Assembly: GCA_003599885.1 (NCBI GenBank)
Contig: QZKW01000021.1
Coordinates: 1 to 45,798 of the forward strand
Source: Desulfobacteraceae bacterium
GTDB taxonomy: Bacteria; Desulfobacterota; Desulfobacteria; Desulfobacterales; Desulfosalsimonadaceae
DNA length: 45,798 nt
Reading direction: 5' to 3'
Below the pieces are notes generated by a model that ran no database searches, was not told the DNA's origin, and saw only the letters and a program-made list of their open reading frames with translations. The translations under genes and the position numbers were made by a program. Position 1 is the stretch's first letter, and every line of letters begins with the position of its first letter. This document shows positions 1 through 35,094 of this stretch, piece by piece.

Positions 1-1047
1 CACCAGATCAAGGGCTTCTTCCTTTGTCAGACGTTTGTCAATATTCACATCCTTGTCATAGTACGGCCCGTGATAATAATCCGGACGGCATGGCATGGCG
101 CCTTCAAAGGCTTCGTGCCGGGTGAAGATCTGAATAAAATGGCCCAGTTGAAAAGATTCCTGTAGATTTCTTGGCGTCTTTGCCGGCACCTGCTCACAGG
201 TTTCCGAGATCCGCAGCAGTTCTTCCTTGCGCTTTGGGTCGGACTCAAAATTTTCAGCAATAATCCGGGCCAGACGCGCGTAGCGTTCAGAATGTTTGAT
301 ACACGCTTCAAGAATGATCTGCATGGCTTCCCAGTTAAGCATCTTGTCATATAAAGGCAGAAGGTCCGGACCCGGGTTGCCGGATGTTTTCTTTTCCGCC
401 GCATCCATGTGACCGTCGATTTCATTGATAATATCTTCAAATCCCCGTTTACCGGTCAGAATATATTCATAATCCTTGCCGGCATATCCGTAGGCTGATG
501 TGGGTGTCCCCCAGCCGATAACACCGCTCATGAACTTGACCAGGTCTTCCGGATCAAGGACCCTGCCCAATCTATCAATCGATGTTTTTCCGCCCCAGTA
601 GTCGGTCAGCTCGGCAATAGTTTTAAGAGATTCTTCTTGCGGTTCAGGGATAACACCTGCCTCGTTGTATACTTCCTCATTAACCATACTGGCACCCTCA
701 ACACACCATTGCAAAGAATTTGGCAACCCTCCTGCATACCCCACAAGCTGTGCATGATCGGTGATAAAAATCGTTTTATTTTCAAGTACATTGGCCAGTG
801 CTTTCGCCTTCCTCAACATCTGGGGATCACGGTCGTTCTCTTTCCAGGCTTCGGTAAAAAGAAGTGGACGTTCAATGTCAATTTTAATCCCCGGATTGTA
901 AGCGCCGCCGATGGCTCCTTTCTTCCATACGGCTTTTCTTAAATAATCTAGTCGTTTTGATCTTGATTTTTCAGCTACCCACCACCATTCCTGGTCTTTT
1001 GCATGCTGTTTTAGTTCCTCTGATTGTTTTGCCGCTGCAGTTGACAT
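1..1047 (-). CDS. Fumarate-adding glycyl radical enzyme, large subunit (BssA-type), C-terminus outside window
   Basis: The first 349 residues are visible; the frame stays open to base 1. The N-terminus carries a WWW-containing segment followed by RLDYLRKAVWKKG, ERPLLFTEAWKEND, GWGTPTSAYGYAGKDY and ENFESDPKRKEELL, which I recognise as the pattern of benzylsuccinate/arylalkylsuccinate synthase alpha subunits (usual length about 860). These enzymes use a glycyl radical and a cysteine thiyl radical to add a hydrocarbon or methyl-aromatic carbon to fumarate in the cytoplasm. The radical glycine and catalytic cysteine lie beyond the edge and cannot be checked. The ATG has an AGGAGG site 8 bases upstream, and the gene follows its small subunit by 20 bases. 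Family assignment is firm; substrate (toluene, cresol, methylnaphthalene, alkane or other) is unknown. Confidence 0.88.
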   Translation of the reverse strand, partial: MSTAAAKQSEELKQHAKDQEWWWVAEKSRSKRLDYLRKAVWKKGAIGGAYNPGIKIDIERPLLFTEAWKENDRDPQMLRKAKALANVLENKTIFITDHAQLVGYAGGLPNSLQWCVEGASMVNEEVYNEAGVIPEPQEESLKTIAELTDYWGGKTSIDRLGRVLDPEDLVKFMSGVIGWGTPTSAYGYAGKDYEYILTGKRGFEDIINEIDGHMDAAEKKTSGNPGPDLLPLYDKMLNWEAMQIILEACIKHSERYARLARIIAENFESDPKRKEELLRISETCEQVPAKTPRNLQESFQLGHFIQIFTRHEAFEGAMPCRPDYYHGPYYDKDVNIDKRLTKEEALDLV

Positions 1048-1361: not shown

Positions 1362-2324
1362 TTAATTCTCATCTTCAAAACCTGAACCGCCGATTGTTAC
1401 CTTCCGAGCACTCGACTCATATAAATCTTTCAGATAATCGATGTCTGCCGGATCAATCGCCTGCAGTTCACCCATTGGCCAAGCTCTTCCGAGCCAATTA
1501 TATTTATCCTCACACCAGTTGTGAAAAGGAATCAGATCGATTCGATCCATCGGTCGCGACAGCGTTGAGAGAAAAGCCGCGACTTTTCGGTGATATTCAC
1601 TGGAATCAGTGTATCCTGGAATCACCAATATCCGTAGCCAGATCTCAGAACCTTTGTCGACAAGCCTAGACAAATTTTGCAAAATCAATTCATTCGGCAC
1701 CCCGGTCAGCTTTTTATGAACCGTTGAATCTATGTGCTTCAGATCTAAAAGGATGATATCGGATTTGTTAACGAGCAATTCAAGATGTTCCCACGGGCAA
1801 AACCCAGTAGTGTCCAAACAGATATGAATTCCTCTTTTTTTTGCGGCAGTTAACAGTTTGTCCGAAAACGCAACATGGGCAACCGGGTCGCCACCGCTTA
1901 AAGTCATACCGCCACCTGAATTTTTATAAAAAAGATCATCTCTTTCCACTTCATCCAGAATTTGCTCGATGGTCATCGGTGTTCCGACAATCTCCAGCGC
2001 CCCGTAAATACAGGCATCAACACATTTCATGCAATTATCACAACGTTCTTTAATTATTTTATAATATGAACTCCCTTCCCTATTCGATTCTTCCGGTGAA
2101 ACAGGAGGATTTATCGCTTCGTTGGGACAGGCGTCAAAACAGGCGCCGCATTGTACACAGAGCCTTTTTTTCCAATAAAGCTCTTTAGCGTATGACTGTG
2201 TTTCAGGATTATGACACCACAGACAGTTCAGGCTGCATCCTTTAAGAAAAACATTGGTTCTAAAGCCCGGGCCGTCATTTACGGAAAAGCGTTGAATCTG
2301 GGTGGTCAACGTTTCATTACTCAT
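1362..2324 (-). CDS. Glycyl radical enzyme activase (radical SAM, BssD-type)
   Basis: This 320-residue protein generates the glycyl radical on its partner by reductive cleavage of S-adenosylmethionine. The radical-SAM motif CSLNCLWC gives Cys30, Cys34 and Cys37. An insert holds two ferredoxin-like cysteine quartets, Cys56/59/62/66 and Cys95/98/101/105, so two extra [4Fe-4S] clusters are expected, as in BssD and other non-PFL activases. SGGGMTLSGGDP is the SAM-binding glycine motif. I place the start at the ATG with GGAGA seven bases upstream; an in-frame start 14 codons earlier lacks a better site. A 129-base gap separates it from the small-subunit gene. It is the only activase in the window, so it may also serve the second glycyl radical enzyme at 19970-22363. 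Confidence 0.9.
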   Translation of the reverse strand: MSNETLTTQIQRFSVNDGPGFRTNVFLKGCSLNCLWCHNPETQSYAKELYWKKRLCVQCGACFDACPNEAINPPVSPEESNREGSSYYKIIKERCDNCMKCVDACIYGALEIVGTPMTIEQILDEVERDDLFYKNSGGGMTLSGGDPVAHVAFSDKLLTAAKKRGIHICLDTTGFCPWEHLELLVNKSDIILLDLKHIDSTVHKKLTGVPNELILQNLSRLVDKGSEIWLRILVIPGYTDSSEYHRKVAAFLSTLSRPMDRIDLIPFHNWCEDKYNWLGRAWPMGELQAIDPADIDYLKDLYESSARKVTIGGSGFEDEN

Positions 2325-2442
2325 TTTTATTCTCCAGACAATTATTGCGAAATAAAACGGCTGCAAAAACTATTTATGGTAAACAGCTATTTATCACATA
2401 AACGATGTTTCGACATACACTAACGATTTCACCGATAATATT

Positions 2443-2771: not shown

Positions 2772-4346
2772 TTACAACGGCATATTCCCATGCCGTTTCC
2801 CATACCTATTTCTTCTTTTATCAGGCATGATTTTAAGAGCACGAATTAAATAACCCCTTGTTTCGGCCGGTGTGATAACATCCTGAATATTTAAATTGGA
2901 TGAAATATCGTAAATGGGATTTGCATAAGTTTCCCGATATTCCTTGAGCTTCTGGTCTATGAATTCCTTTGTAACCCCTGGCGTTCTCCCATAAAGCAGC
3001 ATAATTGACTGTTCCGCCCCCAGGATTCCGGTTTCCACAATCGGCCAATAAAGCACCATATCATTTCCAAGTCCCGGCAGCACTCCCATGCCGAGATTCC
3101 CGCCGCCATACGCCTTTCTTAATACCAGCGAAATGCGTGGTACTGTTGCTTCGCAAAGCGCGTACAGGACTTTTGCTCCGCGCCTGATTATGCCAGCATG
3201 TTCCTGGTCTGCCCCCGGCATATATGCCGGGGTATCGACCAAAAGAATCAGCGGAATATTAAAGCAATCGCAAAAACGAATAAACCTTGCCTGTTTGTCA
3301 GAACTGTCAGATGTCAATGCTCCCGCCTTCACCATTGGCTGATTGGCAACGATACCGATTGTTTTTCCGTCCAGACGAGCAAAACCGACAATTATCTCCG
3401 GTGCAAAATCTTTTTTCACCTCATAAAAATCGCTATTATCCACAATTGCATTAATCACCTGATGCATATCGAATGGTTTGTTGGGTGAACAAGGTATGAT
3501 ATTGTTTAATTCTTCACAGGTTCTTTTCGGATCATCATTGCTTTGATATGCAGGGGGAGCTTCTTCGCAATTTAAAGGGAGGAAACTAAGCAGTCTTCTG
3601 ATATTAAGCAGACATTCCTCTTCGCCTGAATAAATGAAATCGCAGCAGCCGCTTATCCGTGAATGAACAGCGGCCCCTCCGAGTTCATCTTTTGTAATAT
3701 CCTCTCCGCTAATCATTTTTACCACCTGAGGACCGGTAATAAACATGTGGCTCTGCTTATCGATCATGTAAATAAAATCAGTCAATGCAGGAGAATAAAC
3801 CGAAAGCCCGCTGGATGTGCCTAAAATGGCGGATATTTGAGGGATCATCCCGGAAGCAAGCGTGTTTGGGAAAAAAATTGACCCGCCATGCTTTTCAGAA
3901 ATATTTGAAAAAAGGGAACGCTTTCCCATGGAAAGCACTTCCAGGTCTTCAGAAGTCGGGAGTCTTGCCCCCGGAGAATCGTGGAGTCCGATAAAAGGGA
4001 CTTTACATTCCAAAGCACGTTCCACGGTTCGATACATTTTATTTCCATGCTCCAGACCGACTGAACCTCCCTTTATTGTTGGGTCCTGTGAATAAACATA
4101 TACCTGCCTCCCGTCTATGGTTCCACTTCCACAGATAAGTCCGTCTCCCGGTATATTTCGGGCATGGCCGGCAAGCATATTGGTCTCCAGCAGGCTGTTT
4201 TCATCCAAAAGTATGTCAAGCCGTTCCCTGGCTGACAGTTTCCCCATGGCGTGCTGATTGACGATTCTTTTTTCGCCCCCACCCAGGCGTACTTTTTGGC
4301 GGACTTCATCAAGCTCTTTTAATCGTTTTTCCATCATTGGTTCCAT
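2772..4346 (-). CDS. Divergent acyl-CoA carboxyltransferase (PccB/MmdA family)
   Basis: A 524-residue two-domain carboxyltransferase: SARERLDILLDEN near residue 38, GDGLICGSGTIDGR at 67-80, and the family C-terminus KRHGNMPL. Such proteins move CO2 between biotin and an acyl-CoA, or decarboxylate malonyl-type CoAs. The substrate-facing loops differ from the canonical homologue at 43767: DSPGARLPTS (residues 123-132) replaces DSGGARIQEG, GTSSGLSVYSP replaces GPCAGGAVYSP, and AYGGGNLGMGVLPG replaces AYGGSYLVMNSKH. No biotin carboxylase or biotin carrier gene lies beside it. It is the last gene before the hairpin at 2684. Family certain; substrate unknown, possibly a bulkier substituted malonyl-CoA. 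Confidence 0.88.
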   Translation of the reverse strand: MEPMMEKRLKELDEVRQKVRLGGGEKRIVNQHAMGKLSARERLDILLDENSLLETNMLAGHARNIPGDGLICGSGTIDGRQVYVYSQDPTIKGGSVGLEHGNKMYRTVERALECKVPFIGLHDSPGARLPTSEDLEVLSMGKRSLFSNISEKHGGSIFFPNTLASGMIPQISAILGTSSGLSVYSPALTDFIYMIDKQSHMFITGPQVVKMISGEDITKDELGGAAVHSRISGCCDFIYSGEEECLLNIRRLLSFLPLNCEEAPPAYQSNDDPKRTCEELNNIIPCSPNKPFDMHQVINAIVDNSDFYEVKKDFAPEIIVGFARLDGKTIGIVANQPMVKAGALTSDSSDKQARFIRFCDCFNIPLILLVDTPAYMPGADQEHAGIIRRGAKVLYALCEATVPRISLVLRKAYGGGNLGMGVLPGLGNDMVLYWPIVETGILGAEQSIMLLYGRTPGVTKEFIDQKLKEYRETYANPIYDISSNLNIQDVITPAETRGYLIRALKIMPDKRRNRYGKRHGNMPL

Positions 4347-19969: not shown

Positions 19970-22363
19970 CTAAAACATCTGTTCAGTCCGTAGAATAATT
20001 TCATCCTGCATTCGATTGTCAAGATCGATAAAATAGGCTGAATAGCCGGCGACCCGCACTATCAGCCCTTCATGAGAATCCGGTTTTTCTTTTGCATCCA
20101 ATAACAGGGGGCGGTCTACGCAGTTAAACTGGATATGATGTATACCAAGGTCACTCCAGGTTTTTAAATAACTTTTCATCAGGCTGTATTTTGCGGGCGA
20201 AAAGAACACCGGCATAAATTTCTGGTTTAATAAAAAATTGCCGGTCTTTAACGGATCTATTTTTGCCACCGATTGTAACGTCGCTGTTGGTCCGCTGGTG
20301 TCCTTGCCCTGAACCGGGGAAATACTCCCATCATGAAATGGCTCTCCGGCTTTTCGCCCATCAAATGTTGCCGGCAGGAGCATTCCCACGCCGATGGGCG
20401 CGGATGCGGTTGTGCCGTCTATTAAATGCGGATTCCCGTAGATATCGATGGAATGATCGCAGACTTCTTTTACTTTCAGCATGATATCTCTGCTTATCAG
20501 ATCCACATAATCATCATCATTACCGAATTTGGGTACCTTTTGCTCTATCATCAGGCGGACATTTTCATATTCTCCTTCAAAATTATTCGTCACCGCATTA
20601 CAAAATTCTTCAAGGCTTATTGCCTTGTCTTCAAAAACCAGTTTCCTGATCGCCGCCAACCCTCCGGCAACATTGTTACAGCCGAAAACAAGATGATGAC
20701 GCATGCCGAGATATTCCCAGTCGCGCATATCGCATGCCTTTTCAATGTTGCCGTCTAAGATGGCTGAAAGAAAGGGCCTGGGTATGTACTTTTTCATGAG
20801 AACATCCGCAATATTGGAAATGTGCGTCAGCACCTTACCCGCATAATCCACCTGCGCACAAAAGGCATCCCAGACATCCTTGGAAGAGCGCATTTCCGAA
20901 ATCGGCGGGGTTTTAACGCCCACAAAATTTCCCATAAATTTACCTTCAGATAACGCAAGGTTTAAGCACATGGGCAGTATAAATGCACCGGTGTGCCCTG
21001 CCCGGTAATGAATATTTTTCCCGGGGATGACCGGCTGCATGCAGTTATTGATCCCGTAATCCCTGGCATCTTCAATTTTGGCACCTATATCCGTCAGCCT
21101 GGGGATATTTACATTGTCATTAAAAAGTCCGGGCTGAGCACTGCCGCTGTAAACACATTTAAAGATTGATTCATAAAGTTCAGATGGGGTTTTGTCATGA
21201 ATACGAACGGCTATCTGCGGAGCAATGGTTTTTATATCACCGGTCACCTCCAGGGCGATATGGGTCATCTCATTGGTAATATCTTTCCCGTCCGCATCAA
21301 CGCCCCCTAAGGTAATGGTCTGAAAACCCAACCCACCACCCCCATTATTTACCCATATGGGGGGCTGAACATAACCGCCTTCCTGCATCTTTACCCATAC
21401 AGCTTCCACAAGCTCTTTGGCCTGATTCCTGTCAAGAATGCCGGCCTTGATATCCGCCTCATAAAACGGGCCGAATATTTTATCAAAGCGAATTCCGTTT
21501 CCAACCTGGGGTTGATCAATATAATTAACAATAAAATTTATGAAAATAAAGCATTGCAGCGCTTCATTAAGATTTCGGGCAGGGTTTGCAGGCACTTGCC
21601 GGCAGGCTTCGATCATCCGGTCAAGCTCTTTTTTCCTTTTTTTATCTTTTATGTCTTTTTTATAACCCTCAAGCATGTCCGCATATCGTAACCCCCAGCG
21701 TGCAACCGCTTCGGTTGAGATCTTCATTGCCCGGAGTTCATCGAGTTTTTTCATGCGATCTTCGGAACCCACAGAAATGTCATCCGATACTTCCTTAATC
21801 TTAGCATTAATTTCTTCAACAATTCCATTTAGGCCGATATTTAATATTTTCTCATAATCAGGCGTTGAAATCTCCCACTGCCACATCCACATCCCGGTAA
21901 CGGTTTCACCCATTTTCCAATGCATGCCGTCCGGGATATATCCCCTTTCCCTCCCATGGATGGAGAGGGGTTTCCAATAGTTATTTATTTCAAAAAATTC
22001 TTCTTTCTCTTTTTCACTGAGCATTCCGGCATAATCAGGCAGCTTGTTCACCGCCTTTTCCAGCCATCGCCAATACAGTTCAGGATAGGTCGGCAGGCTG
22101 GTTTCCGAACTTGCAAAACAACCGACAATCAGTTCGTTTTCCCTGGTAAAAAGGGTCATGTTGTCCAGAAAGGCCGCCATCCCCTTAGCCCTTCGCAGAG
22201 CCATCGATTCCCCCTCGGTCTTTTTGTATACATCAGTGATGATACGCGCCCGTTCAAGGCAAATTTTTAAGCCTTTTTTCACCGTCCGGCTATCGGCAAT
22301 CCGGCCAAGGGACTTGACGCAGGTTTCTGTTTTCAAGGTCTTGTTTCTCAATGTCGCTGTCAT
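19970..22363 (-). CDS. Second glycyl radical enzyme, substrate unknown
   Basis: A full-length 797-residue glycyl radical enzyme. The radical-storing Gly773 is in VRVAGYSAYFIDLD near the C-terminus; the thiyl cysteine is most likely Cys441 in GINNCMQPVIPG. In the eliminating members (glycerol/diol dehydratases, choline lyase, hydroxyproline dehydratase) that cysteine is followed by V-E, the glutamate acting as base. Here it is M-Q, so ordinary dehydratase or lyase chemistry is doubtful. It also lacks the double cysteine of pyruvate formate-lyase. NGIRFDKIFGPFYEADI and CRQVPANPARNLNEALQ are general family features. No activase gene adjoins it; the nearest is at 1362-2324. The AAGGAG site lies somewhat far from the ATG. 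Confidence 0.88.
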   Translation of the reverse strand: MTATLRNKTLKTETCVKSLGRIADSRTVKKGLKICLERARIITDVYKKTEGESMALRRAKGMAAFLDNMTLFTRENELIVGCFASSETSLPTYPELYWRWLEKAVNKLPDYAGMLSEKEKEEFFEINNYWKPLSIHGRERGYIPDGMHWKMGETVTGMWMWQWEISTPDYEKILNIGLNGIVEEINAKIKEVSDDISVGSEDRMKKLDELRAMKISTEAVARWGLRYADMLEGYKKDIKDKKRKKELDRMIEACRQVPANPARNLNEALQCFIFINFIVNYIDQPQVGNGIRFDKIFGPFYEADIKAGILDRNQAKELVEAVWVKMQEGGYVQPPIWVNNGGGGLGFQTITLGGVDADGKDITNEMTHIALEVTGDIKTIAPQIAVRIHDKTPSELYESIFKCVYSGSAQPGLFNDNVNIPRLTDIGAKIEDARDYGINNCMQPVIPGKNIHYRAGHTGAFILPMCLNLALSEGKFMGNFVGVKTPPISEMRSSKDVWDAFCAQVDYAGKVLTHISNIADVLMKKYIPRPFLSAILDGNIEKACDMRDWEYLGMRHHLVFGCNNVAGGLAAIRKLVFEDKAISLEEFCNAVTNNFEGEYENVRLMIEQKVPKFGNDDDYVDLISRDIMLKVKEVCDHSIDIYGNPHLIDGTTASAPIGVGMLLPATFDGRKAGEPFHDGSISPVQGKDTSGPTATLQSVAKIDPLKTGNFLLNQKFMPVFFSPAKYSLMKSYLKTWSDLGIHHIQFNCVDRPLLLDAKEKPDSHEGLIVRVAGYSAYFIDLDNRMQDEIILRTEQMF

Positions 22364-23525: not shown

Positions 23526-23954
23526 TTATGAGTCCGTTTTAAAATTATCATCTGGTTTTGGTTCAAAATGGTGTTCAAGGTAATTTGTAATCATTTCATC
23601 TGTAACTTGACCGGAGGTTACACAGAAAAAGCCTCGTGCCCAAAAATGTCTGCCCCAATATCGCTTTTTAACATTAGGGAATTCCTCAAACAGTTTTGTC
23701 GCGGACCTTCCCTTAATTTTTTTCATAATTTCACTTGGAGCTATATTCGGTGGCGCAGAGACAAAAATGTGAACATGATCCTTGCTCACAACACCACTAA
23801 TTATTCTTATTTCAAAGGCTTCACAGGTTTGCCGAACCAATTCTCTGACCCGTTGAGCAATATCTCCCTTCAATACTTGATAACGATATTTTGTTACCCA
23901 TACAAAATGATACTCAATATTGAAAACTGTATGGCTTCCATATCTATATTCCAT
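23526..23954 (-). CDS. tnpA: IS200-type Y1 transposase TnpA
   Basis: A complete 142-residue Y1 transposase. The HUH motif is HVHIFV (in KDHVHIFVSAPP), and the catalytic tyrosine is in TNYLEHH near the C-terminus. EYHFVWVTKYRYQVLKG at the N-terminus is the family hallmark. It nicks and rejoins single-stranded DNA at the element's hairpins. The length fits IS200 members without an accessory TnpB gene. No frameshift is seen, so the copy may be active. Confidence 0.93.
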   Translation of the reverse strand: MEYRYGSHTVFNIEYHFVWVTKYRYQVLKGDIAQRVRELVRQTCEAFEIRIISGVVSKDHVHIFVSAPPNIAPSEIMKKIKGRSATKLFEEFPNVKKRYWGRHFWARGFFCVTSGQVTDEMITNYLEHHFEPKPDDNFKTDS

Positions 23955-24551: not shown

Positions 24552-25499
24552 TTATTGTAAGTGCATTAAAGCAAGCATCTCCTGTACAATAGAATATGGA
24601 TCTTTCTTGCGAGCGATCACCTGTTTCACCGCCTGATCCAAATTACCGTTTTGATCCCATCTGCACCGGAGAATATACGCGACTTCCTTTTCAAGAAGAG
24701 ATAAAATTTCTTCCTTGATCCGTTCTTCATGCCACGAGGACCTTATCCGTCCGACTTCCTGTAGCTTAAGCATAATCGTGACCAAATCCAACACCCCTTC
24801 ACCGGTTGCGGCGATTGTTTTGAGCACCGGAACTTGTGATGATGTTTCGTCAGAAGAAAGCTCCAGCATGGCACTAATATCAGCAACAGCCTGATCAGCT
24901 TCGCCCTGATCAGCCTTATTAACAACAAAGATATCGGCAATCTCCATTATCCCGGCCTTAATCGCCTGAATACCGTCACCCATTCCGGGGACACAGACAA
25001 CCAGCACCATGTCTGCAGCCTTCACGACCTCCACTTCATCCTGTCCCACCCCAACGGTTTCGATGAGTATAATATCCTTACCGAAAGCGTCCATAATTTT
25101 AACCACGTCCCGGGCCGACAGGTTTAATCCGCCTAAAGCGCCACGCGTAGCCATGGAACGGATGAAAACATCATCAAGGGTACTGACTTCTTTCATACGT
25201 AAACGGTCTCCCAGCAGAGCGCCTCCGGAAAACGGGCTTGAGGGATCCACGGCAATAATCCCGATTTTAAAACCTCTGTCGAACAGCTCACGGGCCAATC
25301 GATCCGTAAGAGTGCTTTTCCCGGCACCCGGTGAGCCCGTGATCCCGATAACGCACGCATTTCCTGTCATGGGATAGATCATTTGCATTGCATCCATCCA
25401 TCCCGGTTCCCGATTCTCGACCCGGGTAATCAGTCTTGCCAGGCCACGAACCGATCCTTTTCTCATTTCGACGATCAGGCTTTTCCAATCTTCCCACAT
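24552..25499 (-). CDS. meaB: MeaB/ArgK-type GTPase, chaperone of B12-dependent acyl-CoA mutase
   Basis: A 315-residue G3E GTPase. Walker A is GSPGAGKST (residues 55-63), DPSSPFSGGALLGDRLRM is the switch region, ETVGVGQDE the G3 motif and NKAD the G4 motif. MeaB loads, gates and rescues the adenosylcobalamin of methylmalonyl-CoA-type mutases. Its presence with separate large (33340) and small (27554) mutase subunits supports a working B12 mutase in this locus. A GGAGAT site precedes the ATG; the 279-base gap upstream holds no gene that I can recognise. Confidence 0.93.
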   Translation of the reverse strand: MWEDWKSLIVEMRKGSVRGLARLITRVENREPGWMDAMQMIYPMTGNACVIGITGSPGAGKSTLTDRLARELFDRGFKIGIIAVDPSSPFSGGALLGDRLRMKEVSTLDDVFIRSMATRGALGGLNLSARDVVKIMDAFGKDIILIETVGVGQDEVEVVKAADMVLVVCVPGMGDGIQAIKAGIMEIADIFVVNKADQGEADQAVADISAMLELSSDETSSQVPVLKTIAATGEGVLDLVTIMLKLQEVGRIRSSWHEERIKEEILSLLEKEVAYILRCRWDQNGNLDQAVKQVIARKKDPYSIVQEMLALMHLQ

Positions 25500-25778: not shown

Positions 25779-26576
25779 TTACCTACCCTTGAAAACCGGT
25801 TCTCTTTTTTCAAGAAATGATTTAAACCCTTCCATGAAATCTTCGCTTTTCAGGCACACATCAAGGACATATGCCTCATAGTCGAGCGCCTGGGGCAAGT
25901 CTGTCTTGTAAAAATTCTGCAGACCCCTTTTGACGAAAGCGATCGGAATCGGCGCATTTTTTGCCATTCGTTCCGCCATCTTATACGTAACGGGAAGCAA
26001 CTCTTCAGGTGGCACCACCTTATTTACCATACCAATCTCCAGCGCCTCCCGGGCATCTATTACTTCACCGGAAAATAACAGCTCCGCTGCTTTGGCATAT
26101 CCGACCAATCGCGGCAGAAAGTGAATCCCACCCCAGTCGGGGAAAGCGCCCCTCCTGGTAAAAACCTGCCCGAATCTGGCTTTTTCACTGGCAATCCTGA
26201 TATCACAAGAAAGCGCCAGATTGCATCCACCACCGGCAGCAACGCCGTTAACCGCTGCAATAACCGGTTTTTCAATTGAATTTATAGCCAGAACGGTTTT
26301 ACACATAGTATGTCTTTCGTGTGAAACATTACTCGCAAGCGCCTTGGTTTCACCGGCCACAAATTCATTAACATCGCCGCCTGTGCAAAAAGCCTTGTCG
26401 CCGGCCCCGGTGATCACGATTACACGAATTCCCGGATCTGCCCCTGCGTTTTCCACGGCTTCAAGGATCTCGTTTCTCATATTACCGGCAAATGCATTAT
26501 ATTTATCCGGCCGGTTTAAGGTTATGGTGGCGATTTTATCTTTTTTATCTAAAAGAACATATTCCCATTGCATCAT
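25779..26576 (-). CDS. Crotonase-family protein (isomerase/hydratase-like)
   Basis: A 265-residue crotonase. The oxyanion-hole segments are AFCTGGDVNEF and AAGGGCNLALSC. The first hydratase glutamate is replaced by Asn, and the second region reads FGQVFTRRGAFPDWGG, with the aspartate pattern of PaaG/BadK-type members. It is therefore more likely an isomerase, or a hydratase of an unusual substrate, than a standard enoyl-CoA hydratase. It starts in an ATGA overlap with the stop of the NPD flavoprotein gene, so the two are translationally coupled. Confidence 0.88.
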   Translation of the reverse strand: MMQWEYVLLDKKDKIATITLNRPDKYNAFAGNMRNEILEAVENAGADPGIRVIVITGAGDKAFCTGGDVNEFVAGETKALASNVSHERHTMCKTVLAINSIEKPVIAAVNGVAAGGGCNLALSCDIRIASEKARFGQVFTRRGAFPDWGGIHFLPRLVGYAKAAELLFSGEVIDAREALEIGMVNKVVPPEELLPVTYKMAERMAKNAPIPIAFVKRGLQNFYKTDLPQALDYEAYVLDVCLKSEDFMEGFKSFLEKREPVFKGR

Positions 26577-27520
26577 CCGCCTCCAAACATTGTCTTCAGT
26601 TGTTGCGTCAATAGATCAGTTCCCTGTATCAATCCCAGAAAAATTTTGTCGATCTTCTCTATTTTTTTTATTAAGCCCGAAATTTGTCCGGCCGGCATAA
26701 CCGCAGTATCCGCATCGCCTCCTGACTGAATATATTGAGCGTCTGCATCAGCGCCTCTAAGATGCATGTCCTCCTGATGCTTGTCCGGATTCTGTATCAT
26801 GTCCACTGCGCGGTTTCTTAAAACACGGATGGGCATAGCGTCCTTTCCGAGAAGAATTGTGGAATCGCTGCCCGCTTCCACAATAAGTTGTTTAAAAAAA
26901 TCAGGGACCGGGCATTCCTGCGTGGCGACGAATCGGGTCCCTAATTCAACCCCTTCAGCGCCCAATGCAAAAGCGGCAACCACCCCCCGGGCATCTGCAA
27001 TCCCTCCGGCGGCAATGACGGGTATATTCAAAGCATCTGCCAACTGAGGCACCAGGCACATGGTCGTTGTTCCCTGTCGACCAACGTGACCACCGGCCTC
27101 AAATCCTGTGGCTATGACAGCGTCAACGCCACAGGATTGAGCTTTCAGTGCCATTTCTTTGGAGGAAACTTTATGCAGCACTTTTAAATCGGCCTCTTTG
27201 ATACGCTTCATAAACATCGCCGGGTTTCCCGCAGATGTTGTAATGGTTTTAATTCCTGCATCAATGGCTATTTCAAGCGCATCAAAGGCGTTCATGCGAT
27301 AGAGAGGGATATTTATTCCAAATGGTTGATCCGTCAAATCCCTTGCTTTTTTAACTTCCAGAAGTAACCGGTCCGAAGAGAGACCGGAGGCGGCAATCTG
27401 ACCGAAACCCCCGCTGTTTGATACGGCTGCCGCCATTTCACCAAGGGTGATGAGACGCATGGGGCCTAAAATAAACGGATATTTAGTCCCGGTAATCTCG
27501 ACGATTCGATTCTTTACCAT
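26573..27520 (-). CDS. NPD/nitronate-monooxygenase-family FMN oxidoreductase
   Basis: A 315-residue TIM-barrel flavoprotein. PFILGPMRLITLGEMAAAVS is the N-terminal barrel start; ATGFEAGGHVGRQG and PVIAAGGIADARG are the FMN-phosphate-binding segments; GVELGTRFVATQECP is the conserved late strand. The family includes nitronate monooxygenases and FabK-like enoyl reductases. In an anaerobic beta-oxidation operon, a role in oxidising or reducing an acyl-CoA double bond is more likely than oxygenation; this is inference. AGGAGGCAAAC precedes the ATG. Confidence 0.85.
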   Translation of the reverse strand: MVKNRIVEITGTKYPFILGPMRLITLGEMAAAVSNSGGFGQIAASGLSSDRLLLEVKKARDLTDQPFGINIPLYRMNAFDALEIAIDAGIKTITTSAGNPAMFMKRIKEADLKVLHKVSSKEMALKAQSCGVDAVIATGFEAGGHVGRQGTTTMCLVPQLADALNIPVIAAGGIADARGVVAAFALGAEGVELGTRFVATQECPVPDFFKQLIVEAGSDSTILLGKDAMPIRVLRNRAVDMIQNPDKHQEDMHLRGADADAQYIQSGGDADTAVMPAGQISGLIKKIEKIDKIFLGLIQGTDLLTQQLKTMFGGG

Positions 27521-27553: not shown

Positions 27554-27952
27554 TTAGGGTAAATTTGACCTGATAAATGTTCCCACATCTTTTATGGAAG
27601 TGCCTGAAGTAAACACGCCGCTGACACCCATTTTTTTCAGTTCAGGGACATCATTATCCGGGATGACCCCTCCGATAATGACCAGAATATCATTTGCATT
27701 TTGTTCTGATAGTTTTTCAATGACCTTCCTCGTCAATGTCAGATGAGCCCCTGATAAAATAGAAAGGCCCACCACATCGACATCTTCCTGAACGGCAGCG
27801 CTGACGATTTCTTCCGGTGTCTGTCTCAGACCCGTATATATAACCTCAAATCCCAGATCCCGTAGACCGTAGGCAATAACTCTGGCGCCACGCTCATGGC
27901 CATCCAAGCCAGGTTTGGCAACCAATACTCTAATTTTTTTTTCCGTATTCAT
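27554..27952 (-). CDS. B12-binding small subunit of an acyl-CoA mutase
   Basis: A 132-residue cobalamin-binding domain. The base-off/His-on motif D-x-H-x-x-G is Asp17-Gly18-His19 to Gly22 (GLDGHERGARVI); the partner motifs are VVGLSILSGAH and VIIGGVIPDND. This is the full small subunit of split mutases such as isobutyryl- or 2-hydroxyisobutyryl-CoA mutase. The large subunit lies about 5.4 kb upstream in the same strand run, unusually far. A GTGAGG site precedes the ATG, and a terminator-like hairpin lies between this gene and the one upstream. Confidence 0.93.
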   Translation of the reverse strand: MNTEKKIRVLVAKPGLDGHERGARVIAYGLRDLGFEVIYTGLRQTPEEIVSAAVQEDVDVVGLSILSGAHLTLTRKVIEKLSEQNANDILVIIGGVIPDNDVPELKKMGVSGVFTSGTSIKDVGTFIRSNLP

Positions 27953-28082: not shown

Positions 28083-30176
28083 CTATACGAGGCCACTATC
28101 AACTCCGCAGGCGATCAACCGTTCAAATTCTCCGGCGGGCTTGAAAAACGCCAGTCCGTATTTGTCATAAAATTCCTGTAACCGCCCAAGTGTATATTTA
28201 ACCCCTTTCTGGGAGACATAACGACCGGGGCCATGCCAGCAGTCAGGGAAGCCGATCCCTATAACGGAAGCAAGATCCATACTGTAATAATTTTTAACAA
28301 CTCCTTCGTCCAGACAATGAAACGCCTGATTGGCCATTGCGAGCAAAAGCATTTCTTTCGCTTCCTCACGGGTTGGGGTCGGCAGGGATTCATTGCGGAC
28401 GACATGCTCTAATGCCGATTTGTCCGGTTTCATGCCCGGGCCGTAAAAACAGGGTTTCCCGGCGCCCACATAACCGGCCTCATACATTTTAATCAGGGTT
28501 TTCGGTACTTGAATCAGCTCCGGCTTTTTTGATTGCATATACGACCCGGCATGATAAATGACATTCCCGCCGGCTGTCCCGTAAATATTCAACGGGCCCT
28601 GAGGAAAACCGGCTTCAAGGGCCAACTGGTCAATTTCCCAGGGGTCAACCCCCATTTCCGCCAGATAAAAACCGGCCATAACATAAACGCCGAATGTTCT
28701 GCTGGTATAAAAACCAGGGCCATCGCCGACGATGACACAGGTTTTTCCCTGCTGCCGGCCGGAAGCGACTGCGGTTGCAAGCGCACTTTCAGATGTTTGC
28801 GGCCCTTGAATGACTTCCAGAAGCGGCATTAAAGGAACCGGTGAAAAATAATGCATCCCCACAACCATTTCCGGACAAACGGATTCAGCGGCGATTTCCT
28901 GCATGGGTATAGTGGAGGTATTGGACGCAAAAACAATATCCGGGTTGATGTCCTGAACCTGCTTGAGAATTTTCCGCTTTAAATCAAGGTCTTCAAAAAC
29001 AGCTTCAATCACCAGCGGAATAGTTTTCAACTCATCATAATTATCGGATACACGAATATTATCCATCACCATATTTTTTCGTTCCAAAGTCCAGCGCCCC
29101 TTTTTTACCAAAGGTTCCAAGCCCTTGCCGATATTTTCCTTTGCAGCTTCAGCGGTTTTTATATCAATATCAATAAGGAGGGTTTTGATACCCTTATCCG
29201 CGCAAACCTGAGCAATACCCTGCCCCATGAGACCTGCGCCGATGATTGCCAATTCAGGTGCGGGGATTGCTTTTTCCAAATTAACAATAGACAATCTCGG
29301 CGCAATACTTGTCATTAGAAAGAAAAAATCGATCTTGTTTTTTACATTGGGATGCTCAATCAGCGGGGCAAAGTGAATGACTTCATTTTTCGCGGCTTCT
29401 TCAAAAGGCAATTCAAGCCCTTCTTCAATGGCATCAATCGCCGCCTTCAAATAAGGTTTTTCCGGACAAAGGGCAAACCGTTCCCGAACTTTTTTAATCA
29501 ACGCGTCCCGAACTTTTTTGGTTAATTTTGCGGGTTCTTTCCACAAGGGATCATAATTCCGATTGACAATAATCGGATGAGATTCAATCCATTGTTCAGC
29601 ATCGTTCTGAATGTCTTTTTTATCGCTAATTGTAACTAAACATGAATCCGCGTATGCTTCTGCTGGAAGCACCTGCCCACGCATGACAACCTCAATCGCT
29701 TTTTCAAGTCCGATGACCCTTCTTAAGGTTTCGGGCCCGCCGGCTGCCGGGAAAAGGCCAATGTTGACTTCCGGCAATCCCAATTTTGTACCTTCAGTGG
29801 CAAAGACATGGTCACAGGTCCATAAAAGCATCTCAAAACCGCCTCCCAGTGCGGTTTGGCCGGGAAGAACCGCAACAACTGGGAACGGGCTCCTGGCGAG
29901 AGCCGCAAACGTTTCCTGAAGCTTCAGCACAGTATATTTCAGGTTCAGCGCTGATCCATCCTTCATTATTTCCATGAGGTTGGCGCCATCTAAAAAACTC
30001 TTCTTCTTAAGCGACGTTAAAATAACGCCTTTGGCATTATCTCGGTTTGCTTTTTCAGTAGCAATTGCCAAATCTTTGATGAACTGATCTCCAATGGTGT
30101 TGACCGGTCCTGCGGTATCTATGAGAAATGTTGCAATTTTATTAACAGGATCGAGTCGGTATATAACTTCAGGCAT
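28083..30176 (-). CDS. Enoyl-CoA hydratase / 3-hydroxyacyl-CoA dehydrogenase fusion (FadB-like)
   Basis: A 697-residue bifunctional beta-oxidation protein. The hydratase domain (about 1-190) keeps both catalytic glutamates, Glu115 in GGGFEMLL and Glu136 in GLPEVNIG. The dehydrogenase part begins with the NAD-binding GAGLMGQG (313-320); the catalytic histidine is His442 in GMHYFSPVPLMPLLEVI. It hydrates an enoyl-CoA and oxidises the 3-hydroxyacyl-CoA. It is the only crotonase domain in the window with a full hydratase signature. A GGAGG site precedes the ATG, and the thiolase gene is 48 bases upstream. Confidence 0.93.
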   Translation of the reverse strand: MPEVIYRLDPVNKIATFLIDTAGPVNTIGDQFIKDLAIATEKANRDNAKGVILTSLKKKSFLDGANLMEIMKDGSALNLKYTVLKLQETFAALARSPFPVVAVLPGQTALGGGFEMLLWTCDHVFATEGTKLGLPEVNIGLFPAAGGPETLRRVIGLEKAIEVVMRGQVLPAEAYADSCLVTISDKKDIQNDAEQWIESHPIIVNRNYDPLWKEPAKLTKKVRDALIKKVRERFALCPEKPYLKAAIDAIEEGLELPFEEAAKNEVIHFAPLIEHPNVKNKIDFFFLMTSIAPRLSIVNLEKAIPAPELAIIGAGLMGQGIAQVCADKGIKTLLIDIDIKTAEAAKENIGKGLEPLVKKGRWTLERKNMVMDNIRVSDNYDELKTIPLVIEAVFEDLDLKRKILKQVQDINPDIVFASNTSTIPMQEIAAESVCPEMVVGMHYFSPVPLMPLLEVIQGPQTSESALATAVASGRQQGKTCVIVGDGPGFYTSRTFGVYVMAGFYLAEMGVDPWEIDQLALEAGFPQGPLNIYGTAGGNVIYHAGSYMQSKKPELIQVPKTLIKMYEAGYVGAGKPCFYGPGMKPDKSALEHVVRNESLPTPTREEAKEMLLLAMANQAFHCLDEGVVKNYYSMDLASVIGIGFPDCWHGPGRYVSQKGVKYTLGRLQEFYDKYGLAFFKPAGEFERLIACGVDSGLV

Positions 30177-30224: not shown

Positions 30225-31418
30225 TCACACTTGAACCATGATCGCTTCGCCCTGGGTTAAACCTCCGCATATGGCAGCCACAGCATTTCCTCCGCCTCTT
30301 CGCCGAAGTTCGTACATCATTGCCATGGTAATCCTGAGGCCGGAAGCCCCTACCGGGTGCCCAATAGCAATTGCGCCGCCATTAACATTGGTTTTCGCTA
30401 TCAACTCGTGCCATTTTTTTTCATCATTTTCCGCCAGTATTTTGGTGCTGACCAATGGCATTGCGGCAAAAGCCTCATTGATTTCAATCAGACTGATGTC
30501 CTCAATGGCCATCTTTGTTCTTTCCAGCAACTTGTTAATGGCAAAGGCTGGAATCCACGATATGCCATAAGGCATGTCGGTTCTCCCGACCTGATCAATG
30601 ATCGTCCCTAGAATGGTAAGACCCAGTGCCTTCGCTTTTTTCTCGGTCATAATCACCATGGCGGACGCACCGTCATTCAACCCCGGCGCATTTCCGGCCG
30701 TAGTAGTTTTTGCCCCAAATACCGGCGGAAGCATTTCGAGCGCCCCGACGCTTCCGCCGGGTCTCGGCATTTCATCTGCTGCAAAAAAGAATTTTTGTCT
30801 TCCCTTTCTTACTGGTATGGGAACGATTTCATCATCAAATTTTCCAGCTTTCATTGCAGCCGCCCATTTCAAATGGGAGCCCATTGCAAAGCTGTCCAGC
30901 ATTCTTTTAGGAACATTATATTTTTCAGCGCCATCAGACGCATCGACCGCCACTGAATGGTAGCCGGGATACATGATGGGGAATATCGGATCAGGCATCT
31001 TCACTTCACCGATTCTGACACCAGCCCTGAGTTGACGCGACATATGAGGCGCCCTGCTCATGGCCTCTGTACCAATTACAAGCGCAGACTCTATTTCGCC
31101 CAGCCGAATGCCCCAGAGCGCCATTCGAAGTGCGGTAAGGGGCGAGCAGCAGGCAGTATCAATAGTTGTTGTGAATACGTCACGGCCCACCTTAAGGCCA
31201 ATCTGTCTGCCCGTTACCGAACCGGTCTCATAGGAACTCGGTATACAGTTTCCCACAAAAATCTGATCGATTTCATCTTTAACATTGTTTCCTGCTGCCT
31301 CCAGCGTGGCGTTAGCAACATGAACAGCCACATCAAGCGGCTCCATTTCGGAAAGAGAACCGAGGTATTTTCCAAAAGGCGATCTTTTGGCACTGACAAT
31401 GACACATTTTTCAGACAT
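30225..31418 (-). CDS. Acetyl-CoA acyltransferase (thiolase)
   Basis: A 397-residue thiolase of normal length. The nucleophilic cysteine is Cys91 in IDTACCSPLTALRMA, NEAFAAMP is the conserved middle motif, GHPVGASG carries the catalytic histidine, and AICGGLTQGEA the second cysteine. It cleaves a 3-oxoacyl-CoA with CoA to release acetyl-CoA or propionyl-CoA. I place the start at the ATG ten bases after GGAGG rather than 11 codons earlier. It pairs with the hydratase/dehydrogenase fusion directly downstream to complete a beta-oxidation round. Confidence 0.93.
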   Translation of the reverse strand: MSEKCVIVSAKRSPFGKYLGSLSEMEPLDVAVHVANATLEAAGNNVKDEIDQIFVGNCIPSSYETGSVTGRQIGLKVGRDVFTTTIDTACCSPLTALRMALWGIRLGEIESALVIGTEAMSRAPHMSRQLRAGVRIGEVKMPDPIFPIMYPGYHSVAVDASDGAEKYNVPKRMLDSFAMGSHLKWAAAMKAGKFDDEIVPIPVRKGRQKFFFAADEMPRPGGSVGALEMLPPVFGAKTTTAGNAPGLNDGASAMVIMTEKKAKALGLTILGTIIDQVGRTDMPYGISWIPAFAINKLLERTKMAIEDISLIEINEAFAAMPLVSTKILAENDEKKWHELIAKTNVNGGAIAIGHPVGASGLRITMAMMYELRRRGGGNAVAAICGGLTQGEAIMVQV

Positions 31419-31522
31419 TCGTTTTTTCCTCCTATATATATTTTTATTCAACTCTCATTTATCTACATAAACCTGATTATCCATCTCACAACATGCCCTG
31501 CACAAAAGCTGCGAATCGTGCT

Positions 31523-32872
31523 CTATTCCTTTTGTACCGACTTGACAAATGTCTTCATGTTGTCGATTGTTTCAAGGGAATCAACTGCCATATCCATAGC
31601 ATCAGCCGTTGGATTACCAAGGACAGGCGAGCAAAGGTCTTTAAATTTAGCTGAAATTTTAGACTTTTTTTCTTGAAGCTCCGGTATGATCTTTAAAATA
31701 TCTGAAACAGCGGTATATGCTCTTCCTGATTTGGTTTCGATTTCAACTCTTGCTTGCAGGGCTTGGAAATCCTGTGTGGTATTGACAGTTATTTTTTTCA
31801 TAAAGGCCTTTAATTCTGGGTCATTGATCTTTTCCTCAGTAAACGCCTGCATCCCGGTATTTTCATTTAATAGCGCATTGGCCACACAATATGGGATACA
31901 GAATTTTCCTTCCAGGCCAGTATTGGCTTCCATCTTGCTGGCGGCCGACAGGGCCAGGGCTGAGGAAAACACCCTGATTTCTTTGATATCATTGAGTTCT
32001 AATCCTTCCTTCTGGATGATAAATCGGGCCGCTTCGATGGGGGAATGGGTGGCATGGCAGGAGGCGTGGTATTTCTGTGCCAAATCTTCAATCTCCCATG
32101 TCTTGCCTATTGTGTTTACGACATCTTCACTCACATTTCCTTTAAAAACTTTGAAAAAACCGTGGGCGCCTTCAATGACATCCTCAGCACCGGTGAACCC
32201 ATCCCTTGCAAGAAGTGCAGCCATTAGACCGGACTGGGATGCTTTACCGGCATGAAATGCTTTGCTCATTGTTCCAAAAGATATTTTCAATCCGGAAGCC
32301 TGAGTTCCGGCAATTCCCAAGGCATTAGCAGATTGTTTTTCATCTAGCCCCAACAGTTTCGCACAAGCGGCAGCCGAAGCAAAATGCCCAAGCGTTGAGG
32401 TCGGGTGGCAGCCGGACATGTAATGCTCAATCCCGCCGCAAGCCCCGATAACAGCCCCCACTTTAAGGCCAATAATGTAAGCGGTAAGAAAATTACTGCC
32501 GGACTTCTCCATCCATTCCGAAAGCGCAAGAATAGAGGGGAATATCGTCACGGATGGATGTCCCAGAAAATGCTCCAGAGTATCGTCATAGTCGAGAACA
32601 TGAGATGCTGCACCATTGATTAAAGCTGCCTGGCATGCTGTTTTTTTGACACCATACCCCAACAAGGTCACCTGTTTGTGCCCACCCATCAGGTCAGCAA
32701 ATTTAATTAATTTTTCAACCAGCGGGTCATTTTTTCCGGCAAATGTAACGCCAAGCCAATCCTTAAAGGCGACCTTGGCATGATCAAAAACATGAGAGGG
32801 GATATTCGATTTCTCTGTTTTAGCAATAAAGTGAGCTAATGTTTTGGTCAGTTCGATAGATTTTTCCGGCAT
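31523..32872 (-). CDS. MmgE/PrpD family protein
   Basis: A 449-residue protein of the 2-methylcitrate dehydratase fold: KDWLGVTFAG near the N-terminus, GAASHVLDYDDT, HPSVTIFPSILALSE, GCHPTSTLGHFASAAA and KYHASCHATHSPIEAA. Family members dehydrate 2-methylcitrate, decarboxylate cis-aconitate or isomerise related acids. No methylcitrate synthase gene is nearby, so the true substrate is uncertain; processing of a substituted tricarboxylic or dicarboxylic acid is possible. AAGGAGG precedes the ATG. It sits between the small membrane protein and the thiolase in the mutase operon. Confidence 0.88.
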   Translation of the reverse strand: MPEKSIELTKTLAHFIAKTEKSNIPSHVFDHAKVAFKDWLGVTFAGKNDPLVEKLIKFADLMGGHKQVTLLGYGVKKTACQAALINGAASHVLDYDDTLEHFLGHPSVTIFPSILALSEWMEKSGSNFLTAYIIGLKVGAVIGACGGIEHYMSGCHPTSTLGHFASAAACAKLLGLDEKQSANALGIAGTQASGLKISFGTMSKAFHAGKASQSGLMAALLARDGFTGAEDVIEGAHGFFKVFKGNVSEDVVNTIGKTWEIEDLAQKYHASCHATHSPIEAARFIIQKEGLELNDIKEIRVFSSALALSAASKMEANTGLEGKFCIPYCVANALLNENTGMQAFTEEKINDPELKAFMKKITVNTTQDFQALQARVEIETKSGRAYTAVSDILKIIPELQEKKSKISAKFKDLCSPVLGNPTADAMDMAVDSLETIDNMKTFVKSVQKE

Positions 32873-32968: not shown

Positions 32969-33274
32969 TTAATTATTATGCCAGGGCAGCTTTGCATTCG
33001 GATTGCTCCAGAACATTGACAAAATCAGTGATATTAGAAAGCCCCCCAACAAAAAAGCAGTAATCGTTGAGCCCGCCAGTATTTCTGCATCAAGGTTAAT
33101 AAACAGACAACCGCCGATGAGCAGGTTGATCCATCCCCACATAACATTTATCGTCGGGCTGGATTTTTGAGAGAAGGGCGTCATGTGACGTTTACCGCAA
33201 ATCCCCTGAACCAGATGCGGAATTGCATTAAATAAAAATATGCCTGAAAAAAAAACTTTTATTAAATCTGCCAT
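32969..33274 (-). CDS. Small membrane protein, unknown function
   Basis: A 101-residue protein with three hydrophobic segments: ADLIKVFFSGIFLFNAIPHL, VMWGWINLLIGGCLFI and STITAFLLGGFLISLILSMFW. It has no signal-peptide cleavage site that I can see and ends in a polar tail (NAKLPWHNN). GGAG lies before the ATG. It is located between the mutase large subunit (65 bases upstream) and the MmgE/PrpD gene, an odd place for a membrane protein unless transport or membrane docking of the pathway is involved. Family not recognised. Confidence 0.7.
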   Translation of the reverse strand: MADLIKVFFSGIFLFNAIPHLVQGICGKRHMTPFSQKSSPTINVMWGWINLLIGGCLFINLDAEILAGSTITAFLLGGFLISLILSMFWSNPNAKLPWHNN

Positions 33275-33339: not shown

Positions 33340-35094
33340 TTAAATCAATGCAGGTTTCGCTTCGCCAAAAACATTTCGGAGAACATCACAAATTTCCTGC
33401 AACGTCGCATAAGTCTTGACGCAAGAGAGAATGTCCGGCATCAGATTGATCGATTCGTCAGCGGCGTTCTGTCTCAATTTTTTGAGGCTCTGTGCAACCA
33501 GACTGTTATCTCGATCATTTTTTAGACGTTGAAGACTTTCTTTTTGACGGTGCTCCGCGCTGGCCATCAAATCTGCCGAATACACTTCTTCAACGCTGCG
33601 GTTGACCTGAACATCTATTTCATCAGGGCCCATAAAACAATTGACGCCCACAACAAACTCTTCCTTGTTTTCAATTTTTTTCTGTTTTTCATAGGCACTT
33701 TTGGCGACGGCCTTTTGCATATATCCGTTTTCAATGGCAGCAACAACCCCACCCATTTGTTCGATTTTATCGAATTCCGCCTTTGCCTCGGATTCAATCT
33801 CATTCGTCATTGATTCCATAAAAAAGGATCCTGCCCAGGGGTCTAAAGTCTCACCTAACTTGGCCTCATATATTAGTACCCGCGTTCCGTCATAAACCAG
33901 CTGCTGGGCTTCCAGGCTGTGTCCCAACCCAAGCGGCTCGTCAAATGGAGGATATACACCCGGAAGACCTCCGGACATTCCGGCTGCCATAGCTCCGACA
34001 ACGGAACGGACAAGGTTATTCAGAGGTCTCTGCAACTGGGTACTGCTGCATCCTATGTGAGCTGTGGAAATCTGCCGGATCATCATGCTTTTTGGATTTT
34101 TTGCGGCGAAACGTTCTTTCAGCATGCGGGCCCACATTCTACGGGCAGCACGCTGGAAAGCAATTTCTTTGTAAAACTCCATGCTTCCGCCAAAGGCGTT
34201 AAAAGTAAATCGGGGGGCAAAAATATCAATATCAAGCCCCGCATCAACCCCTGCCTGAAGATAGGCGGCACCGATCACCATGCTAAAAGCAAGATCCTGA
34301 GCCCTTGTGGCCCCGGCTTCTCGCATATGATATCCGCCGATGCTGGTAACATTAAATTTCGGCATATATTTGGTACAAAAAGTAAGCGTGTCACGAAAAA
34401 GCCGCAAAGATGGCCCCGGAGGAAATATATAAGTACCCCGGCCAACAAACTCTTTTAAGATGTCATTTTGGGGCGTACCCCTTAGTTTGTTGATTGGAAT
34501 ACCGCGTTGCCCGGCCAATGCTGCGTACATGGCGATGATAACCGCCGCCGGCGCATTAATGGTAAAGTTTGATGCAATTTTGTCCAGATTCAGATCCCCG
34601 ATGTAGGGTTCGTAGATGATTTCAAAATCCCTAAGGGAATCTATCGCCACACCCACCCGACCGACCTCACCCTCTGCATGGGGATCATCCGAGTCATAAC
34701 CGCATTGTGTTGGCAGATCCATTGCTATGTTCGGAGCACCTTTACGTCCCAGTGAATGCATCCGGATCAGGTAATCCCGATAATCTTTAGCCGTCCCAAA
34801 ACCAGCATATTTTCCGGCACCGCTGGTGCCCCATTCAAACCGCGTTTCCGCCTTTGCCATCATTTCAGAAAAAGCCTGCCATTTAGGAATTGGATCATTT
34901 CCGGCGGTAAATGGGTATTGGCCGGGAAAGCCGACGTCTTCAAGAAAGCTAAAATTCTTTATATCCGCAGGCGTATAAAAACGTGTCGGACTATTTTTAA
35001 GGCCTAATTTATTCAGATGCGGCGAAATCACACCTTCCTGCCACTGTTGATGTGCCTGTCCTGTTTTTTCCTTATTCTCTTTGGTATCGTTCAT
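33340..35094 (-). CDS. Divergent large subunit of a B12-dependent acyl-CoA mutase
   Basis: A 584-residue TIM-barrel mutase subunit. Conserved parts include KYAGFGTA, DLPTQCGYDSDDPHAEGEVGRVGVAIDS, PQNDILKEFVGRGTYIFPP (208-226), GGYHMREAGAT (253-263) and DPWAGSFFMESMTNEIE. Two regions differ sharply from methylmalonyl-CoA mutase: the TMY..RPWT.RQ segment over the substrate is replaced by a longer stretch ending RFEWGTSGAGK (85-95), and the usual GGTQSLHTNSFDEA is replaced by SGGLPGVYPPFDEP (374-387). It lacks the B12 domain, supplied by 27554-27952. A substrate other than methylmalonyl-CoA is expected, possibly an alkyl- or aryl-succinyl-CoA. A GGGAGAT site precedes the ATG. Confidence 0.9.
   Translation of the reverse strand: MNDTKENKEKTGQAHQQWQEGVISPHLNKLGLKNSPTRFYTPADIKNFSFLEDVGFPGQYPFTAGNDPIPKWQAFSEMMAKAETRFEWGTSGAGKYAGFGTAKDYRDYLIRMHSLGRKGAPNIAMDLPTQCGYDSDDPHAEGEVGRVGVAIDSLRDFEIIYEPYIGDLNLDKIASNFTINAPAAVIIAMYAALAGQRGIPINKLRGTPQNDILKEFVGRGTYIFPPGPSLRLFRDTLTFCTKYMPKFNVTSIGGYHMREAGATRAQDLAFSMVIGAAYLQAGVDAGLDIDIFAPRFTFNAFGGSMEFYKEIAFQRAARRMWARMLKERFAAKNPKSMMIRQISTAHIGCSSTQLQRPLNNLVRSVVGAMAAGMSGGLPGVYPPFDEPLGLGHSLEAQQLVYDGTRVLIYEAKLGETLDPWAGSFFMESMTNEIESEAKAEFDKIEQMGGVVAAIENGYMQKAVAKSAYEKQKKIENKEEFVVGVNCFMGPDEIDVQVNRSVEEVYSADLMASAEHRQKESLQRLKNDRDNSLVAQSLKKLRQNAADESINLMPDILSCVKTYATLQEICDVLRNVFGEAKPALI

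Follow-up and report, generated by a model that had tools for sequence, protein, structure and literature searches.

The gene at positions 33340..35094 (minus strand) of a 45,798-nucleotide stretch of Desulfobacteraceae DNA (contig QZKW01000021.1; the whole stretch analysed is called the window below) very probably encodes the large subunit of a (1-methylalkyl)succinyl-CoA mutase of anaerobic n-alkane degradation, acting with the B12-binding subunit at 27554-27952 and a MeaB protein. Alkane activation is proposed to be followed by epimerisation and by rearrangement of the carbon skeleton (PMC3653055 and PMC4561516, in their available parts), and the accessible text of genome papers including PMC6776118 already proposes the carbon-skeleton step and names McmLS as its putative mutase. 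The genes of the later alkane steps remain unclear according to the available part of PMC8163825, and are elsewhere "not conclusively described" or called methylmalonyl-CoA mutase (MCM). The window mutase would be of the same kind as McmLS, the putative "methylmalonyl-CoA mutase" of the ass/mas clusters of Desulfoglaeba alkanexedens and D. alkenivorans AK-01. On our best reading, it belongs to a kind of enzyme already proposed in papers, with a sequence signature that is apparently undescribed, and no description of the lost motifs or of a separate mutase clade was found in the accessible text of the open-licence PMC literature. The genes of the locus are the following:

1..1047, minus strand: N-terminal part of a MasD/AssA-type alkylsuccinate synthase catalytic subunit, 349 codons from the predicted start to the contig end, which truncates the gene
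1362..2366, minus strand: radical-SAM activase of a glycyl radical enzyme, AssD role
2772..4346, minus strand: PccB-like carboxyl transferase, candidate for alkylmalonyl-CoA decarboxylation or transcarboxylation (role from the available parts of papers)
24552..25499, minus strand: MeaB-type GTPase, mutase chaperone (TIGR00750 above cut-off)
25779..26576, minus strand: enoyl-CoA hydratase family protein (by eye from the translation), recurring with the NPD gene
26573..27520, minus strand: FabK/NPD-like flavoprotein, recurrent in related loci
27554..27952, minus strand: mutase small subunit, B12-binding domain with DxHxxG (DGHERG)
28083..30176, minus strand: enoyl-CoA hydratase/3-hydroxyacyl-CoA dehydrogenase fusion, downstream beta-oxidation
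30225..31451, minus strand: acetyl-CoA C-acyltransferase (thiolase), downstream beta-oxidation
31523..32872, minus strand: MmgE/PrpD-family protein, predicted alkylsuccinate C2 epimerase, closest to iminodisuccinate (IDS) epimerase
32969..33274, minus strand: 101-aa protein encoded between MmgE/PrpD and the mutase, without a match in Pfam; locus L256 has a 54% relative
33340..35094, minus strand: mutase large subunit, predicted (1-methylalkyl)succinyl-CoA mutase, 584 aa
35210..36757, minus strand: AMP-forming acyl-CoA ligase upstream of the mutase, predicted to activate the alkylsuccinate (AssK role)

Downstream of the mutase, the same strand carries the genes for the 101-aa protein, the MmgE/PrpD protein, the thiolase, the fusion protein, the small subunit, the flavoprotein, the hydratase and MeaB. 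The DxHxxG partner and the nearby MeaB GTPase form the setting of an adenosylcobalamin-dependent mutase, and the ligase, MeaB and small subunit in the window, with an AssA fragment 32 kb away, form that of an alkylsuccinyl-CoA mutase. Two queries for an acyl-CoA dehydrogenase found none in the window. MeaB is, we assume, what is usually misnamed the "LAO/AO" system. Much the same genes are found in ass cluster 1 of D. alkanexedens, which holds assABCDE and masE with both mutase subunits, an "LAO/AO" system and an MmgE/PrpD gene as ancillary genes (PMC7180275).

In the proposed pathway, the AssA/MasD glycyl radical enzyme would join the alkane to fumarate, the MmgE/PrpD protein would epimerise C2 of the (1-methylalkyl)succinate, and the AMP ligase would form the CoA thioester. 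In the mutase, Tyr96 and Arg219 would hold the free carboxylate while the thioester carbonyl is moved with the B12 subunit to give alkylmalonyl-CoA, MeaB loading or repairing the cofactor; the carboxyl transferase would then remove CO2 ahead of beta-oxidation. We infer the substrate, its chain length, the part played by the replaced segments and the steps after the first.

A distinct clade of mutase large subunits

The original prediction held that the protein keeps the barrel and cofactor motifs of its family and has lost the TMY..RPWT.RQ segment and the GGTQSLHTNS block, and both halves are borne out. The large subunit scores 464.9 bits in a profile search with PF01642 and has the TIM-barrel fold with its cofactor partners retained, and alignment with other mutases confirmed the two replacements, which lie with two retained residues at these positions:

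34810..34842, minus strand: residues 85-95, replacing the WTxRQ segment before MCM Tyr89 (from the alignment; model confidence low)
34807..34809, minus strand: Tyr96, at the MCM Tyr89 position (55 of 56 clade rows, one gap)
34438..34440, minus strand: Arg219, at the MCM Arg207 position (56 of 56 clade rows)
33916..33984, minus strand: residues 371-393, a block ending PPFDEPLGLGHS that replaces GGTQSLHTNS (from the alignment)

In the alignment, Y96, Q209, R219 and H256 are the equivalents of MCM Tyr89, Gln197, Arg207 and His244, which we take to be the functional MCM residues in their usual numbering; Q209, R219 and H256 are conserved in all 56 clade rows. PDB titles give 5req as the Y89F mutant and 1e1c as the H244A mutant. 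With Y96 and R219, the protein therefore retains the two residues credited with holding the free carboxylate of dicarboxylic acyl-CoA substrates. Replacement of the two segments probably gives the pocket and the CoA channel another shape, one that fits an alkyl chain; residues 83-93 have a pLDDT below 50 in the AlphaFold2 model.

The mutase set retained 169 of 214 matches after removal of short and identical ones, and from these, three partial rows and a second copy of the window protein were excluded. The signature is shared by 56 of the 166 sequences compared: WTxR occurs in none of the 56 clade rows versus 105 of the 110 others, SLH in none versus 95, and GLG in all 56 versus none. The GLG count is circular because this motif helped define the clade, which does not apply to a tree built without those columns. 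In such a tree of 85 rows (the 56 clade members and 29 of the 110 others), with both odd segments removed, the 56 group together with support of 100/100 on a stem of 0.85, and they form one side of a branch in all 200 bootstrap trees checked. The suggestion that the protein represents a separate subfamily is thus supported. The window mutase sits in a subclade of 23 rows (support 100/100) containing mutases linked to AssA elsewhere, L120, L126, L250-L252 and L254-L257 among others. In a quick tree of 61 rows, 29 of them from the clade, the references 4r3u, a 2-hydroxyisobutyryl-CoA mutase (HCM), and 1req, an MCM, both fall outside the clade; this tree included one proven HCM and no proven isobutyryl-CoA mutase (ICM) or pivalyl-CoA mutase. 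The interrelations of the outgroups are unsure because several of their branches are long. One contig scan listed at least four clade members among 80 loci, and a tblastn search of plasmids matched 422 records, none at 60% identity or more (best row, 41.5%).

The pathway mutase is currently annotated as MCM. The clade signature (no WTxR, a GLG-containing DEPLGLGxS block, and the Tyr/Arg pair kept) offers a way of telling the pathway enzyme apart from the housekeeping MCM.

Linkage and co-occurrence with alkylsuccinate synthase

Co-occurrence was scored on the best 2-6 candidates per genome, in an order set and a phylum set that overlap in some genomes, with cut-offs of 44% (XSS, alkylsuccinate-synthase-like enzymes), 66% (AssA) and 53% (isomerase) chosen after the lists were inspected. 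Among the 395 genomes of the phylum set, 20 hold both the clade and an AssA of at least 66% identity, 16 the clade only, none AssA only and 359 neither; the clade is thus present in 20 of 20 genomes with such an AssA, versus 16 of the 375 others. In the order set (194 genomes; XSS of at least 44% at the full-length level), the corresponding counts are 13, 1, 3 and 177. Fisher tests of co-occurrence gave p = 1.3e-16 and 3.4e-24, with genomes treated as independent and shared ancestry ignored. In the actinobacterial order of the L035 organism (18 genomes; AssA of at least 60%), both genes occur in nine genomes, the clade only in two, AssA only in one and neither in six. No clade mutase was found in the order genomes G049, G124 and G133, all of which have an XSS, the AssA of G124 matching at 70%. 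In G049 and G133 (loci L153 and L154), the XSS is 43-45% identical to AssA and an MmgE/PrpD isomerase lies about 7-8 kb away; these enzymes perhaps serve another fumarate-addition substrate.

The two genes are also linked physically. Mutase and AssA/XSS genes share a contig in 15 genomes including that of the window, with gaps of 0.35-32 kb, and a glycyl radical enzyme of about 830 aa recurs at clade loci. Among 16 loci with the mutase and a glycyl radical enzyme, the small subunit is present in 12, MeaB in 11 and the ligase in 10; the enzyme of L121 is 31% identical to AssA and counts as generic, which leaves 15 loci with a clade mutase and an XSS. The 23-row subclade of the window mutase accounts for 12 of these 15.

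The AssA of the window is an incomplete fragment, 66% identical over 347 aa to the AssA of L117, which itself scores 1485 bits against MasD (9o8u) versus 518 against benzylsuccinate synthase. The second half of the gene was not found on other contigs of the genome at E 1e-60. Between the fragment and the mutase, 32 kb apart, lie transposase-like genes (15274-16530 and 23526-23954; family assigned by eye from the translations), and these may be what separated AssA from the mutase genes. A 797-aa glycyl radical enzyme encoded at 19970-22363 was considered as the alkylsuccinate synthase and rejected, its best PDB match being glycerol dehydratase (401.9 bits) and its identity to AssA 31%; the AssA is therefore the fragment at the window edge. 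The 797-aa enzyme has Cys-Met-Gln where dehydratases carry Cys-x-Glu, and relatives of it (44% and 68%) occur in two other mutase loci, L121:3149-5569 and L251.

Other substrates and other mutases

The original prediction proposed a bulkier succinyl-CoA derivative as substrate, and named benzylsuccinyl-CoA and alkylsuccinyl-CoA. The general proposal is well supported, by inference, from the retained Tyr/Arg pair and the clustering with alkylsuccinate synthase genes, and alkylsuccinyl-CoA is the favoured compound. Benzylsuccinyl-CoA is disfavoured because none of the six genomes found to encode a benzylsuccinate-synthase-type enzyme has the clade; five of them (G011, G042, G077, G115 and G156) belong to the order set and one (G478) to the phylum set. 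With TutD, G478 scores 1523 bits and G011 1008 bits, and the enzymes of G042, G077, G115 and G156 are 56-97% identical to that of G011. G077, whose enzyme is 97% identical to that of G011, gave a partial match of 45% in the order set and is not included in the XSS count; among five phylum genomes with matches of 33-38%, only G478 was typed as benzylsuccinate-type (not G206, G266, G322 or G462). If the toluene route needs no mutase, the absence of the clade from these genomes is expected.

A substrate not derived from alkanes is an unlikely alternative for the window. Here, the enzyme would rearrange aryl- or other alkylsuccinyl-CoAs whose acids are imported or made otherwise, on the model of the phenylsuccinyl-CoA mutase IaaGH. 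In the available part of PMC8360864, IaaGH of auxin degradation is reported as a phenylsuccinyl/benzylmalonyl-CoA mutase, likewise rearranging a bulky substituted succinyl-CoA; it belongs to another pathway and is likened to the window mutase by its reported reaction. No AssA was found at E 1e-120 in 16 of the 36 phylum genomes with the clade. Clade members also occur in four named records (L035-L038): the genome of L035 has AssA, whereas the other three (Chloroflexi, Dehalococcoidia and Desulfosarcina), of uncertain completeness, gave nothing above 36% identity. Several AssA-less clade loci carry TRAP or TctC transporter genes and CaiB instead, so that the substrates of the clade are probably wider than alkane products. 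Against such a role for the window enzyme stand its own AssA fragment and activase and its place in the subclade that holds most XSS-linked loci. In L232, L235, L236, L238, L244 and L245, the AssA-less clade mutases adjoin CaiB with TctC or TRAP transporter genes, and these loci possibly serve the import and use of substituted succinates.

For the alkylsuccinyl-CoA mutase reading, an ordinary diverged MCM of the propionate/succinate route is a far weaker competitor and is very improbable. It would explain the shared Pfam family and the retained equivalents of Tyr89, Arg207 and His244. The split subunits would not tell against it either, as HCM too has separate large and small subunits, 4r3u being a large subunit of 584 aa. 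However, compared with MCM (1req, 2xiq and E. coli ScpA), the window mutase lacks the WTxRQ and SLHT blocks and the fused B12 domain, and does not group with known MCMs in the trees. It scores 402.6 bits against the MCM equivalog profile, far under the cut-off of 876, and its host genome carries elsewhere two canonical MCM-type genes, besides a fused gene of 1092 codons that is IcmF-like by length.

The least probable candidate of all is a mutase for monocarboxylic acyl-CoAs, of the 2-hydroxyisobutyryl-, isobutyryl- or pivalyl-CoA type: it would share the split architecture of HcmAB, and 4r3u is among the top PDB matches (316.7 bits), but HCM has Ile/Gln where the clade has Tyr96/Arg219, keeps SLHT, and clusters in the tree with Shinella L173, away from the clade. 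A role in acetone/2-hydroxyisobutyrate degradation, with a mutase of the HCM type, was considered and rejected since the Arg207 and Tyr89 equivalents are retained.

The MmgE/PrpD neighbour as a candidate epimerase

There is about an even chance that the MmgE/PrpD protein (31523-32872) is the C2 epimerase still missing from the anaerobic alkane pathway. Acting before the ligase on the free (1-methylalkyl)succinate, it would supply the diastereomer accepted by the mutase clade and form with the mutase one module that also serves AssA-less organisms feeding in other substituted succinates, with a CaiB-type racemase replacing it in some AssA-less loci. In the available parts of the papers, epimerisation ahead of rearrangement is proposed from stereochemistry in PMC3653055; PMC4561516, also from stereochemistry, places it after CoA-ester formation, which counts against the free-acid reading, and PMC6776118 names an alpha-methylacyl-CoA racemase as candidate. 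No named alkylsuccinate epimerase gene was found in the accessible text of the open-licence PMC literature.

The best PDB match of the protein is IDS-epimerase (195 bits; 32% over 358 aligned positions). A role as methylcitrate dehydratase was rejected on scores of at most 39 bits (1szq, 37), and one as decarboxylase on at most 181 bits for the IRG1/aconitate decarboxylase entries. The latter value, that of Bacillus subtilis IRG1, is little behind IDS-epimerase, and IRG1 of B. subtilis probably has another function according to the available part of PMC12290011 (2025). H91, D94, H105, Y151, H156, K204 and K267 do not vary among 19 such proteins, and IDS-epimerase has them too; judged from sequence, the predicted catalytic His/Tyr and dicarboxylate-binding His/Lys of the IDS-epimerase/methylsuccinate-isomerase branch are present. 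D94 stands against Glu91 of (S)-(R)-methylsuccinate isomerase, in a mapping to the published residue numbers made by spacing only and one residue off at H156.

Relatives of at least 53% identity occur in 16 order genomes, 15 of them with XSS, and 15 of the 16 XSS genomes have one. In the phylum set, 25 genomes have such a relative; the mutase clade is present in 24 of these and AssA in 19, and a single AssA genome has no such relative. All 15 fetched loci with a clade mutase and XSS have an MmgE/PrpD match, at 54% or more in 14 and at 32% in L035. CaiB, presumably the family of the racemase so far proposed for alkylsuccinate epimerisation, was found in none of the 16 mutase and glycyl radical enzyme loci (L121 counted) versus 11 of 38 other loci.

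The available part of PMC12290011 describes the MmgE/PrpD proteins of itaconate clusters as (S)-(R)-methylsuccinate isomerases that act on the free acid but not on its CoA ester, and states that larger, C3-modified substrates could be accommodated. Unlike these isomerases and IDS-epimerase, the window protein lies in an alkane cluster, and its substrate would be far larger than methylsuccinate. With a named candidate, the epimerisation step becomes testable by the coupled assay published there, and the epimerase reading may be a more novel lead than the mutase assignment.

Three further features were observed. A BtrH_N/DUF4872 protein (13859-14839) lies mid-cluster with no obvious link to degradation. 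A radical-SAM protein with a PDZ domain (domain scan for L119 only) is encoded at L119:10776-12767 and in eight other loci, where its gene often adjoins those of the two mutase subunits or lies between them; no match was reported in the window. Furthermore, L133 (8038-9711 and 9724-10995) and L122 carry on one contig a clade mutase and a 37-38% mutase of the ordinary motif type, and genome G046 has six mutase matches of 51-76%; such paired or multiple mutases may form heteromers or act on parallel substrates.
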